Source of the DNA: Dechloromonas sp.
GTDB taxonomy: Bacteria; Pseudomonadota; Gammaproteobacteria; Burkholderiales; Rhodocyclaceae
NCBI GenBank assembly: GCA_011391255.1
Contig: JAABQV010000003.1
Location: 62,001-126,000 of the forward strand
Direction: 5' to 3'
Length of the DNA stretch: 64,000 nt
The notes under the pieces are model-generated. The model did not search any database. It was not told the DNA's origin and worked only from the letters and a program-made list of their open reading frames with translations. The first letter of the stretch is position 1. Each line of letters opens with the position of its first letter. Shown in pieces: positions 54,687-59,327 of the stretch. The position numbers and the translations under genes are program-made.

Positions 54687-55553
54687 TCAGATCGGCATCT
54701 TCATCAATGCTTCACCCATGGCAATTTGTGTACCTTCAAAAATATCGGGGCTCAAACGAAAACCCTTGGGGGCAAAGACAATAATCGTCGAGCCGTGCTG
54801 GAACCAGCCCATTTCTTCGCCCTTTTTGAAGCTGGCAGAGCAGGGAAGGCGATTCGGGCCGCGATAGCGGATGTGCAGCAGCACATCGATGAAATGCAGG
54901 CGAATACTGGCGACCAATATCGCCGCCACCGGCACCAGCAGGATACGCTGACCGCCACTGAGTGTGGTTTCGATCAGCGCGCGCTCGTTTTTACAGAATA
55001 ATTTTTCGACTCGCTTGAGGGCAATCGGGTTGACGTTCCAAGTATCTCCGGAAATGTAATTGACTTCACTGACCGAGCAGTCGGCCGGGGCGTGGAAACG
55101 GTGGTACATGCTGGAGGTCAGGCGCAAGGTGACGTAAGTACCATCACGGTAGTGCTCAACCAGCGCCGGGTCGCCAAAAAGATCAAGCAGAGTGTAGGGA
55201 AAGCCTTTGGCCTGAAATACCTCGATACCGGCGATTGCCCCGCAGGCACCAACGATGCCGTCAGAAGGGCTGCTCAGCACATTGGGGTCGGCGTTGATCG
55301 GTCGGGCGCCTTCCTTAAGTTGGCGGGTAAAGCAATCGTGCAGGCTGCGGAATTCAGTTTTGCGCGCATCCGAGAGATCGAGATCGGCAAAGAGTTTCCA
55401 GGTGGCAATCGACAGGTCACGAATCAGCGGCTGTTCGATCTGGCTGAACCAGCCCATGAAACGGGTCAGCAACTGGCGCGGCACGCGGTTGGTGAGGAGA
55501 AAATTGAGGTCTTCCTGAAGGACTATGCGGGAGATTAGTTTTTTTATCGTCAT
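54687..55553 (-). CDS. psd: Phosphatidylserine decarboxylase proenzyme-like
   Basis: YHRFHAPADCSVSEVNYISGDTWNVNP; C-terminal HGSTIIVF cleavage-type motif. Confidence 0.9.
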   Translation of the reverse strand: MTIKKLISRIVLQEDLNFLLTNRVPRQLLTRFMGWFSQIEQPLIRDLSIATWKLFADLDLSDARKTEFRSLHDCFTRQLKEGARPINADPNVLSSPSDGIVGACGAIAGIEVFQAKGFPYTLLDLFGDPALVEHYRDGTYVTLRLTSSMYHRFHAPADCSVSEVNYISGDTWNVNPIALKRVEKLFCKNERALIETTLSGGQRILLVPVAAILVASIRLHFIDVLLHIRYRGPNRLPCSASFKKGEEMGWFQHGSTIIVFAPKGFRLSPDIFEGTQIAMGEALMKMPI

Positions 55554-55599
55554 GGTTTTGTAATAAGGCTTGGGTAGAAGGGAGGCTAAGGAGAACTCA

Positions 55600-57252
55600 A
55601 TGAACGAAACTTTGCCTTTTTATATTGCCGGCTTCGGCGCCCTGGTGGCAGCTTTGCCGCGTATCAAACGTCGTCTTGAACTGTCGCGTGCCAAGCACCC
55701 GTCGCTCGCCGGGCATTCCCGGGTGGCCAAGCGGGTGGCGCGGCTGATTCCGTTTTACGAATACGATGAAGAGCGCTTTTACAGTGCCGACGGGGCGCCG
55801 GCGGAAATTGCCGAGCGCCGCAAAGCCGGCTTTATGGCTCTGTCGGCGCTCTTTCAGGAGCGTTTTGCCCGCTCGGCGGCGCTGACCAGTGAAGCGGCCG
55901 AGAGTATTTCCGATTTGCAATTCACCGGCAGCTACCGCGTGCCTTTCCAGTTCAGCTGCCATGTTCGTCAGCACTTGAAGGGTGGCAGCTTTTTGCAGGC
56001 CAGCAATGGCGTCAAGGTGACCGATCTTGATGGCAACGAACTGTACGACCTGACCGGTTCCTACGGCGTCAATGTCTTTGGCTATGATTTCTACAAGGAA
56101 TGCATGGCCGAAGGAGCGCAACGGGTTCAGGCGCTGGGGCCGGTGTTGGGTGCCTATCACCCGTTGGTTGCCGATAACGCCAAGCGTTTGCGGGTGATTT
56201 CCGGGCTCGACGAAGTTTCCTTCCACATGTCCGGCACTGAGGCAGTCATGCAGGCCGTGCGCCTGGCTCGCTATCACACCGGAAAACGCAACCTGGTGCG
56301 CTTCAACGGGGCGTATCACGGCTGGTGGGAGGATGTTCAGCCCGGTATCGGTAATCCCTTGCCGCCGCGTGAAACCTATACCCTCAGCGATATGAGCAGC
56401 AAAAGTCTGCAAGTGCTGGCGACGCGCAAGGATATTGCCTGTGTGCTGATCAATCCCTTGCAGGCCTTGCACCCGAATGTCGGTGCGCCAGGTGATTCCT
56501 CGCTGGTAGATAGCAGCCGAAGCGCGCATTTTGACCGTGCGGCCTACACCGAATGGCTGCAGCAACTGCGCGAAGTGTGCACCCGGCGCGGCATTGTCCT
56601 GATTTTTGACGAAGTGTTCGTCGGCTTCCGCCTCGCCGCCGGTGGTGCTCAGGAATACTTTGGCGTGCAGGCCGACATGGTGACCTACGGCAAAACCCTG
56701 GGTGGCGGCTTGCCGGTGGGTGTAGTTTGCGGTCGACGCGATTTGATGAAGCGTTTTCGTGACGACAAACCGGCCGACATCTGTTTTGCGCGCGGCACCT
56801 TCAATGCGCACCCTTATGTCATGGGCGCCATGCAGGTTTTTCTTGAAAAGCTGGCTACGCCCGACGTCCAGGCCATTTATCAGGGGCTTGACGAAACCTG
56901 GAACCGGCGTGCCGAATTGCTCAATACCCGCCTGGAAGCAGTCGGTTTGCCGGTTCGTGTGGCCAATATGTCGAGCATCTGGACGGTCTATTACCAGAAG
57001 CCCAGCCGCTATAACTGGATGTTGCAGTATTACCTGAGGGCGCAAGGGTTGGCACTTTCTTGGGTAGGAACGGGGCGTTTCATCTTCAGCCTGAATTACA
57101 CTGCGGCAGATTTTGAAGAAGTTGCCAAACGTTTTATTGCTGCTGCTTTGGCCATGCAGGCGGATGGCTGGTGGTGGGAGGTTCCGGGTCAGAGCAACAA
57201 GTCGATACGGCGTGGAATACTGCGCGAACTGATTGCAAAAAAACTGGGTTGA
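55600..57252 (+). CDS. Class III aminotransferase (glutamate-1-semialdehyde aminotransferase-like)
   Basis: NGAYHGWWEDV, LIFDEVFVGFRLAAGGAQEYFGVQADMVTYGKTLGGGLPVG PLP-lysine motif. Confidence 0.9.
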   Translation: MNETLPFYIAGFGALVAALPRIKRRLELSRAKHPSLAGHSRVAKRVARLIPFYEYDEERFYSADGAPAEIAERRKAGFMALSALFQERFARSAALTSEAAESISDLQFTGSYRVPFQFSCHVRQHLKGGSFLQASNGVKVTDLDGNELYDLTGSYGVNVFGYDFYKECMAEGAQRVQALGPVLGAYHPLVADNAKRLRVISGLDEVSFHMSGTEAVMQAVRLARYHTGKRNLVRFNGAYHGWWEDVQPGIGNPLPPRETYTLSDMSSKSLQVLATRKDIACVLINPLQALHPNVGAPGDSSLVDSSRSAHFDRAAYTEWLQQLREVCTRRGIVLIFDEVFVGFRLAAGGAQEYFGVQADMVTYGKTLGGGLPVGVVCGRRDLMKRFRDDKPADICFARGTFNAHPYVMGAMQVFLEKLATPDVQAIYQGLDETWNRRAELLNTRLEAVGLPVRVANMSSIWTVYYQKPSRYNWMLQYYLRAQGLALSWVGTGRFIFSLNYTAADFEEVAKRFIAAALAMQADGWWWEVPGQSNKSIRRGILRELIAKKLG

Positions 57253-57331
57253 TCCCGGCTGGCAGGCCCGCAGTCGTTGCTGCGGGGCTTGCGGTCAACG
57301 CCGGAAACAGGTCAAAAATCTCCGGCCCGAA

Positions 57332-57955
57332 TCAGGCGCCTTGTTCGGTCTGGTGCATGGTGTGAACCATCGGGTCAATTAATTCACCGCGCAAAAGGTG
57401 CAGGGGCGCCGAGCGGTAAATCATGAAATCATGGAAAGGATCGGTCAGGATTTTGGTCATCCAGACCAGGCCGGTCTGCACGTCGCGAATGAAGAACAAA
57501 TGGACGGTGCGGAAGAGCAATCCGGCAACACCAAGAGACAACCAGATCAAGCCTACCTGATCAACCAGCGCTGACTTGCTGGTCGCCGGCTCGAAGGCGC
57601 CAAGCAGAGTCGGGTCGATCAAGAGGCTGAACGGCGCCAGTGCCCAGACGGCAATCAGGATCACTTTGCGCTGCAGGTTATAGCCGACCTTGATTGCTTC
57701 CTTGTGGTCTTGGCTTGCCTGATTGACATGGTCGTAGCCGAGCGGCTCAAAGAAGAAATGCCCGGATTGGCGCGTCACCATCGCAATTAGCCAGCCAATC
57801 AACGCCGCATAAGCCGGGTTGATGAATAACATGACGTAAGCGACAAGAAAACTGATCGCACTGATGAAGTGGAGGGTTTGATTAATACGGCTATGGTGGT
57901 AGTAGCGATGGTCATCCCAGCGTTGCACTTTCAGTGCGTGCAGAAATTCTTTCAT
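57332..57955 (-). CDS. Conserved membrane protein with multiple His motifs
   Basis: DDHRYYHHSRINQTLHF, RQSGHFFFEPLGYDHVNQ, several TM segments. Confidence 0.7.
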   Translation of the reverse strand: MKEFLHALKVQRWDDHRYYHHSRINQTLHFISAISFLVAYVMLFINPAYAALIGWLIAMVTRQSGHFFFEPLGYDHVNQASQDHKEAIKVGYNLQRKVILIAVWALAPFSLLIDPTLLGAFEPATSKSALVDQVGLIWLSLGVAGLLFRTVHLFFIRDVQTGLVWMTKILTDPFHDFMIYRSAPLHLLRGELIDPMVHTMHQTEQGA

Positions 57956-58073
57956 GGTGTCTCCTGTAGGGTGGTTGGGCAAGCAGGCCTGCAGTTACCA
58001 AGTTATAGAGGCATTGCTACGAATTTGTTAAAACCTGAAGAAAAATCGATGACTATCTCCCCTTGACGCAAAA

Positions 58074-58106
58074 CTGTCATCTGGCTGTCGCAGGGTTGTT
58101 ACAAAG
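58074..58106 (+). promoter_or_regulatory. Candidate Pho box (three 11-bp units)
   Basis: CTGTCATCTGG-CTGTCGCAGGG-TTGTTACAAAG, 7-bp CTGTCAT-like cores at 11-bp spacing, 40 bp upstream of ATG 58146. Confidence 0.6.
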
Positions 58107-58145
58107 AGTCGCGATCATCAGGCAACTTAATTACTAGTGCACGTT

Positions 58146-59327
58146 ATGGAGTCCATCCTTGTTGAACAGTTAGTACCCGGCCGCCGCTGTCTGCGTTTGG
58201 CTGTCGTTACCGAAACCTATCCGCCCGAAGTCAATGGTGTTTCGCTCAGTCTGGCGCGTTTTGTTGAGGGATTACGCGAGCGTAATCACGAGATCCAGCT
58301 GATTCGCCCGCGTCAGGCGGCGCTTGACCAACCGGCGCGGCGCGAGCGCTTTGACGAATTGTTGACTATTGGCATTCCGATTCCCCGTTACCCGGATTTG
58401 AAAATGGGACTGCCGGCCAAGCGGGCGCTGATCAAGCAATGGACATTAAAACGCCCGGATCTGGTTCATATCGTCACCGAAGGGCCGCTCGGCTGGTCAG
58501 CATTACAGGCAGCGATCAAACTTAAAATTCCTGTTTGCTCGGATTTTCGTACCAATTTCCACGCCTATAGCCTGCACTACGGTATCGGCTGGTTGAAAAA
58601 ACCAATCGTTGCCTATTTGCGCAAATTCCATAATCGCACTCAGTTGACCATGGTGCCTACCGAGCAATTGCGTGCCGAATTGGCCGCCAGCGGCTTCCGC
58701 AACCTGCGGGTGGTGGCACGCGGTGTTGATACCCACCTGTTTAATCCGGCGCGGCGTTGTGACAACTTGCGCAGCGAGTGGGGCGTCAAGGCTGACACAC
58801 CGGTGGTTATTCATGTCGGGCGCCTGGCTGCTGAAAAAAATCTCAGTGCATTGACTTCGGCCTTTCTGACCATTCGTCAGCAACAGCCTCAGGCCCGCTT
58901 GGTACTTGTTGGGGACGGCCCGGAGAGAGCCGCCATGCAAAGCAGGGTGCCTGATGCAATTTTTGCGGGTACCCGGCGCGGTGAGGATCTTGCCACCCAT
59001 TACGCCTCAGGCGATATGTTTCTCTTCCCCAGCGTTACTGAAACTTTTGGCAACGTCACCCTGGAGGCAATGGCCAGCGGATTACCAATGGTCGCCTACG
59101 ATTACGCAGCGGCCGCACAACATCTACGCCATGAGAAAAGTGGGCTGCTGGCCGCCTACGGACAGACAGAAAAATTCACCGGACTGGCTGGTGATCTTGC
59201 CGCTATTCATGCCAACGACCCGCAGCGCTTTGGTGAAATCGGCAAACAGGCTCGCCTGAAAGCCGAATCGCTGGACTGGAAATGCGTTGTTCAGGAGATG
59301 GAAGGCCTGTTGCTGTCGATCGCCTGA
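58146..59327 (+). CDS. GT4-family glycosyltransferase
   Basis: VVTETYPPEVNGVSLSLARFVEGL; HVGRLAAEKNLSALTSAF; FPSVTETFGNVTLEAMASGLPMVAYDYAAA. Confidence 0.92.
   Translation: MESILVEQLVPGRRCLRLAVVTETYPPEVNGVSLSLARFVEGLRERNHEIQLIRPRQAALDQPARRERFDELLTIGIPIPRYPDLKMGLPAKRALIKQWTLKRPDLVHIVTEGPLGWSALQAAIKLKIPVCSDFRTNFHAYSLHYGIGWLKKPIVAYLRKFHNRTQLTMVPTEQLRAELAASGFRNLRVVARGVDTHLFNPARRCDNLRSEWGVKADTPVVIHVGRLAAEKNLSALTSAFLTIRQQQPQARLVLVGDGPERAAMQSRVPDAIFAGTRRGEDLATHYASGDMFLFPSVTETFGNVTLEAMASGLPMVAYDYAAAAQHLRHEKSGLLAAYGQTEKFTGLAGDLAAIHANDPQRFGEIGKQARLKAESLDWKCVVQEMEGLLLSIA

Follow-up and report, generated by a model that had tools for sequence, protein, structure and literature searches.

The Pho boxes of E. 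coli, such as those of pstS and phoA, consist of 11-bp direct repeats of the CTGTCAT type, with the -10 element about 10 nt past the last half-site. In P. aeruginosa, Agt1 and Agt2, both encoded by Pho-box genes, make MGDG and GADG (glucuronic-acid diacylglycerol) under phosphate stress, and Agt2 takes UDP-glucuronate as its sugar donor (PMC8528852). In marine bacteria, PlcP together with an Agt leads to glycosyl- and glucuronosyl-diacylglycerol under the same stress (PMC4796936).

In this work, we have analysed by computation a 64-kb stretch of DNA (the window) in which three direct repeats precede a gene coding for a GT4 glycosyltransferase. The locus resembles the PlcP-Agt1/Agt2 system of P. 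aeruginosa (PA3219, PA3218, PA0842; PMC8528852) in GT4 genes that carry Pho boxes of the form CTGTCATNNNNCTGTCAT, in the pairing of plcP with one GT4 while a second GT4 lies at a separate locus, and in the grouping of the window GT4 with Pseudomonas GT4b genes. It differs in that the host is betaproteobacterial and the GT4 belongs to a conserved module with phosphatidylserine decarboxylase (PSD)-like, class-III aminotransferase and Mpo1-like genes; moreover, the GT4 adjoining plcP in this genome is of another type than that of the Pseudomonas locus L146. With the plcP-agt operons of marine bacteria and rhizobia (Phaeobacter, SAR11, Agrobacterium Agt; PMC4796936) it shares Pho-box control and the use of PlcP together with a GT4, and the products, glycosyl- and glucuronosyl-diacylglycerol in those bacteria, may be alike; however, a single promiscuous Agt operates there, whereas here the GT4 forms its own transcription unit, apart from plcP. 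The reading of the gene as a Pho-regulated lipid-remodelling glycosyltransferase, of a kind already known from marine bacteria, Agrobacterium and Pseudomonas, is well supported by these sequence comparisons.

The candidate Pho box and its predicted -10 element

The initial annotation had described three 7-bp cores at 11-bp periodicity, about 40 bp before the GT4 gene. The repeats are as described: three CTGTCAT-like half-sites follow one another at this spacing (Table 1), separated by the linkers CTGG and AGGG, and a last linker, AAAG, ends at position 58106. Between this linker and the ATG at 58146 lie 39 nt. Initiation upstream of 58128 is ruled out by an in-frame TAA there, and a GTG at 58137 is an alternative start. 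As in E. coli, the predicted -10 lies 10 nt past the last half-site, although the third half-site and the G+C-rich linkers are more degenerate than in the E. coli boxes.

Table 1. Genes and regulatory elements of the locus (window positions)
Feature	Coordinates	Strand	Basis or remark
PSD-like gene, divergent from aminotransferase	54687..55553	-	PF02666, 188 bits; TIGR00163 over cut-off
Pho-box-like site TCGTCAT GGTT TTGTAAT, before aminotransferase	55547..55564	+	matrix rank 2 of ~128,000
Predicted -10 TAGAAG, 10 nt after that site	55575..55580	+	same spacing in module orthologues
Class-III aminotransferase (GSAM-like / lipopeptide AMT-like)	55600..57252	+	PF00202; genetically linked to GT4
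Mpo1-like (2-hydroxy fatty acid dioxygenase-like) membrane protein, divergent from GT4	57332..57955	-	PF06127, 23.9 bits, 0.1 under cut-off
Weak candidate Pho repeats for Mpo1-like gene, TAGTCAT/TTTTCTT/TTTTAAC	58027..58055	-	6.8 bits
Possible fourth half-site TTGACGC, 11 bp before first	58063..58069	+	register from 58063: 12.1 (two repeats), 17.6 (three repeats)
Candidate Pho box, half-sites CTGTCAT, CTGTCGC, TTGTTAC, 11-bp spacing	58074..58102	+	pst-trained matrix rank 1; kept upstream of orthologues
Predicted -10 hexamer GATCAT, 10 nt past last half-site	58113..58118	+	NANNNT phase enrichment, 37 upstream regions
GT4 glycosyltransferase, 393 aa, probably Agt2-like	58146..59327	+	Glyco_transf_4 and Glycos_transf_1 domains; tree

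A half-site matrix, seeded with the textbook consensus, was trained on the regions upstream of pstS-like genes of relatives and of the genome's own pst operon, with the GT4 locus left out. Scanning the window with a PhoB matrix had been suggested as a check, and the outcome favours the box: the site at 58074 ranks first among approximately 128,000 positions on both strands, with 16.3 bits for two repeats and 19.8 bits for three, and dinucleotide shuffling of the complete window (100 replicates) gives an expectation of 0.07 and 0.01 matches of equal strength, respectively. The IUPAC pattern YTGTMAYNNNNYTGTMRY has two matches in the 3.29-Mb genome, this site and the own pstS promoter; since it was composed with both sites already known, it is illustrative, and the independent test is the matrix. 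An Rfam scan of the 64-kb window returned no matches.

A comparison of the upstream regions of orthologues, the second check proposed, indicates that the box is conserved, several orthologues scoring weakly. Orthologues of the GT4 were collected from genome contigs L002-L047 and from further relatives. Half-sites at 11-bp spacing are present in most upstream regions where the GT4 orthologue opens a transcription unit, and 37 of the 68 distinct upstreams reach p<=0.05 in a three-repeat shuffle test; matrix scores are weak before six orthologues (L011, L017, L018, L019, L024 and L043). Almost every same-genus copy is among those that fail the test, and most of these copies closely trail another long open frame. 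For this reason, and in view of the strong box before plcP in the GT4 cluster of G031 (see below), we rejected, as a rule, the same-genus copies L060-L077 as a contradiction of the box.

The spacing of the putative -10 element provides further evidence. We examined 37 upstream regions, that of the window and those of 36 orthologues, many of them from related Pseudomonas. After the repeats, NANNNT hexamers occur at phase 10 mod 11 in 37 of 105 cases, against 0-9% at every other phase. Counted by distance from the best three-repeat stretch, such a hexamer lies 10 nt downstream in 16/37 and 21 nt downstream in 19/35 regions, and one sequence can fall in both tallies. The same 10-nt gap separates the box from the -10 at the genome's own pstS promoter (TAAGCT) and at its own plcP promoter (TATCGT). 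A -10 is thus found at a fixed distance, with the box in place of a -35 element, and we regard this phase locking as the best sign that the GT4 Pho boxes may function. That the repeats are a chance resemblance, as the deviation of CTGTCGC and TTGTTAC from the consensus and the G+C-rich linkers might lead one to think, is hardly tenable, being contradicted by the shuffling figure for three repeats and by the conservation and phase-locked -10 across the orthologues.

By inspection, the predicted leader of the window GT4 is about 20 nt long and carries no clear Shine-Dalgarno sequence. The ATG lies about 6-9 nt past the -10 in the own plcP gene, and likewise in many of the remoter GT4 orthologues (e.g. 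L008-L022), so that leaderless mRNAs are predicted for them.

The genome possesses the regulator that such a box would need. A pstSCAB-phoU-phoB-phoR operon, with a Pho box at its pstS promoter, starts 24 kb past the right end of the window; its PhoB scores 351.8 bits, over the curated cut-off, and its PhoR was identified from gene order, not from a family-library score. The genome is also rich in response regulators (the PhoB model has 84 matches, many to the receiver part only), and sites of the OmpR family can be similar direct repeats, so another regulator of this family with PhoB-like half-sites could bind here and make the GT4 answer a different signal. We consider this very unlikely, as the matrix was trained solely on pst upstreams and the geometry of the box, including the 10-nt gap, equals that of the own pstS and plcP promoters. 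The independent matrix, the conservation among orthologues, the fixed-phase -10 and the PhoB/Pst system with its matching box all agree with the Pho box that had been suspected, and the 11-bp repeats before the GT4 look like a genuine candidate docking site for PhoB.

The glycosyltransferase and its association with PlcP

Both Rossmann-domain models of the GT4 family are present in the protein, as in Agt-type enzymes. Its best NCBIfam match is GlcNAc-phosphatidylglycerol synthase (NF053787); the score of 142.3 bits, far under the 480-bit cut-off, does not place it in that family. Sequence families fix neither the sugar nor the acceptor directly. In a maximum-likelihood tree, the window GT4 and Pseudomonas GT4b genes form one clade (97/97), and two other GT4 types adjoining plcP fall outside it. 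Most of the Pseudomonas genes of this clade are flanked by genes for Oxidored_FMN, a glutathione peroxidase, FKBP/SlyD and Pta, and we take the neighbours of PA0842 (Agt2) to be Oxidored_FMN, GPx, SlyD and Pta as well. The plcH gene, considered as another pointer to PA0842, was not recognised by eye as a neighbour in any of 30 Pseudomonadaceae loci. The tree sampled Pseudomonas GT4b genes rather than PA0842 itself, so it is through this presumed synteny that the Pseudomonas proteins grouping with ours are probably Agt2, a glucuronosyl-diacylglycerol synthase; on the same assumption, Agt2 membership of the window GT4 is likely, though not established. Two NDP-sugar dehydrogenase genes score over their cut-off in the genome, which would be compatible with a supply of UDP-glucuronate.

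The genome encodes its own PlcP homologue (contig C11:9495-10280), directly followed by a second GT4 (C11:10281-11474). Ahead of the pair is a Pho box with four repeats, scoring 27.0 bits, and TATCGT follows it after a 10-nt gap. At this locus (L134:9434-11474, on the same contig C11), the -10 lies 6 nt from the ATG. The plcP gene is therefore present in this genome but unlinked to the window GT4, whereas elsewhere the two are associated: orthologues of the window GT4 lie directly before plcP in two loci (L015, L022) and cluster with plcP, another GT4 and dgkA in two same-genus genomes (L110, L112), and a PAP2 phosphatase gene is found downstream of the GT4 in other orthologous loci. A strong PlcP match was obtained in 18 of the 21 GT4-orthologue genomes searched; the other three have no clear PlcP, two of them (G084, G099) giving weak LpxH-like matches only and the third (G091) none. 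Promoters of plcP score strongly in L139, L145, L147 and L152 and weakly in others, where uncurated starts and contig edges are partly responsible. Within the GT4 cluster of G031 a strong box (25.6 bits) precedes plcP; that of G036 is weaker (10.9).

These observations bear on the nature of the acceptor. The promoter could be controlled by PhoB while the GT4 has a substrate different from diacylglycerol, e.g. phosphatidylglycerol, lipid A or a polysaccharide of the envelope, and plays no phosphate-sparing role; the GT4 family is large, and the best NCBIfam match, though far under its cut-off, is GlcNAc-phosphatidylglycerol synthase. We judge this unlikely, because the linked plcP, dgkA and PAP2 genes handle diacylglycerol and phosphatidate, the protein shares a clade with Pseudomonas GT4b, and the genome has a Pho-box plcP-GT4 pair of its own. 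The proposal of the initial annotation that the gene makes a phosphate-sparing glycolipid gains support from the plcP-adjacent orthologues, the own Pho-box plcP-GT4 pair and the P. aeruginosa relatives; the product would be a glycolipid, probably made in response to low phosphate.

The distribution of the GT4 within the window genus (G001-G048) is patchy. The 77-80% form occurs only in the own genome, G017 and G020, and most others have a 48-53% form, which adjoins dgkA and plcP in both clusters closely inspected. This pattern suggests module replacement or horizontal transfer.

The neighbouring genes

Synteny of the PSD-like, class-III aminotransferase, Mpo1-like and GT4 genes (54687-57955 and 58146-59327 in the window) extends to about a dozen orthologous loci. 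Sulfuricella sp. T08 and Rubrivivax albus are examples of culturable bacteria that carry the module. In the PDB, the aminotransferase is matched best by the corresponding domain of mycosubtilin synthase. This gene was found in 28 of 250 genomes of the order and lies <=4 kb from the GT4 in 22 of the 28; the GT4 was found in 92 of the 250, and the two occur jointly in 23 of the 28 aminotransferase genomes (hypergeometric p 2.5e-7, a value that treats genomes as independent and ignores kinship). For the Pho-box-like site before the aminotransferase, 0.21 matches are expected per shuffled window, and similar sites are present in most orthologues (L002-L008, L013). TAGAAG or a close variant was seen by inspection at equal spacing in most module orthologues. 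The conservation of this site is partly coding, because one half-site and the start codon of the PSD-like gene overlap.

No Pho box for the PSD-like gene itself, which is syntenic in the module orthologues, was found on the minus strand in the window, where scores are low. The Mpo1-like protein is 54-82% identical and syntenic across the module orthologues. Its upstream regions reach 11.7-21.7 bits in L002, L005, L008, L010 and L016, and 16.9-21.7 bits in the last four of these, in which the gene may be Pho-regulated.

It is possible that these genes share an uncharacterised, Pho-controlled lipid pathway. A more specific version, in which the four genes constitute a betaproteobacterial phosphate-starvation module that would make an undescribed phosphate-free lipid, e.g. 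an amino- or aminoglyco-lipid, is put forward tentatively and with more doubt than confidence; here the amination of a lipid precursor would fall to the aminotransferase, in the manner of the mycosubtilin synthase domain, its nearest solved relative.

A putative Pho-controlled route to a phosphate-free glycolipid

Returning to the glycosyltransferase, we propose that the segment 58074-58118 is a PhoB-activated promoter that would express the GT4 under low phosphate, and that the enzyme would carry out an Agt2-type glycosylation of diacylglycerol, leading to the replacement of phospholipids. To this joint reading of the sequence data we assign a probability of roughly 0.8. Phosphorylated PhoB would bind the direct half-sites, of which there are three or possibly four. 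These would stand in for a -35 element, and PhoB would recruit RNA polymerase to GATCAT 10 nt downstream, so that under phosphate shortage the promoter would drive the GT4 gene that starts at 58146. PlcP, encoded at a separate Pho-box locus together with the second GT4, would free diacylglycerol from phospholipids, and the window GT4 would then move a sugar from a UDP-sugar to it, glucuronic acid being the likeliest and glucose or another hexose possible. As a result, a phosphate-free glycolipid would take over from the phospholipid.

What would this mean for the organism and its relatives? Judging by the relatives named above, PhoB-controlled PlcP-Agt remodelling would extend to Rhodocyclaceae-type Betaproteobacteria. 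The candidate regulon would comprise pst, plcP-GT4, the agt2-like GT4 and the aminotransferase. The last of these, linked to the GT4 and with a Pho-like promoter of its own, is less expected than the GT4 result and hints at a possible uncharacterised lipid step.
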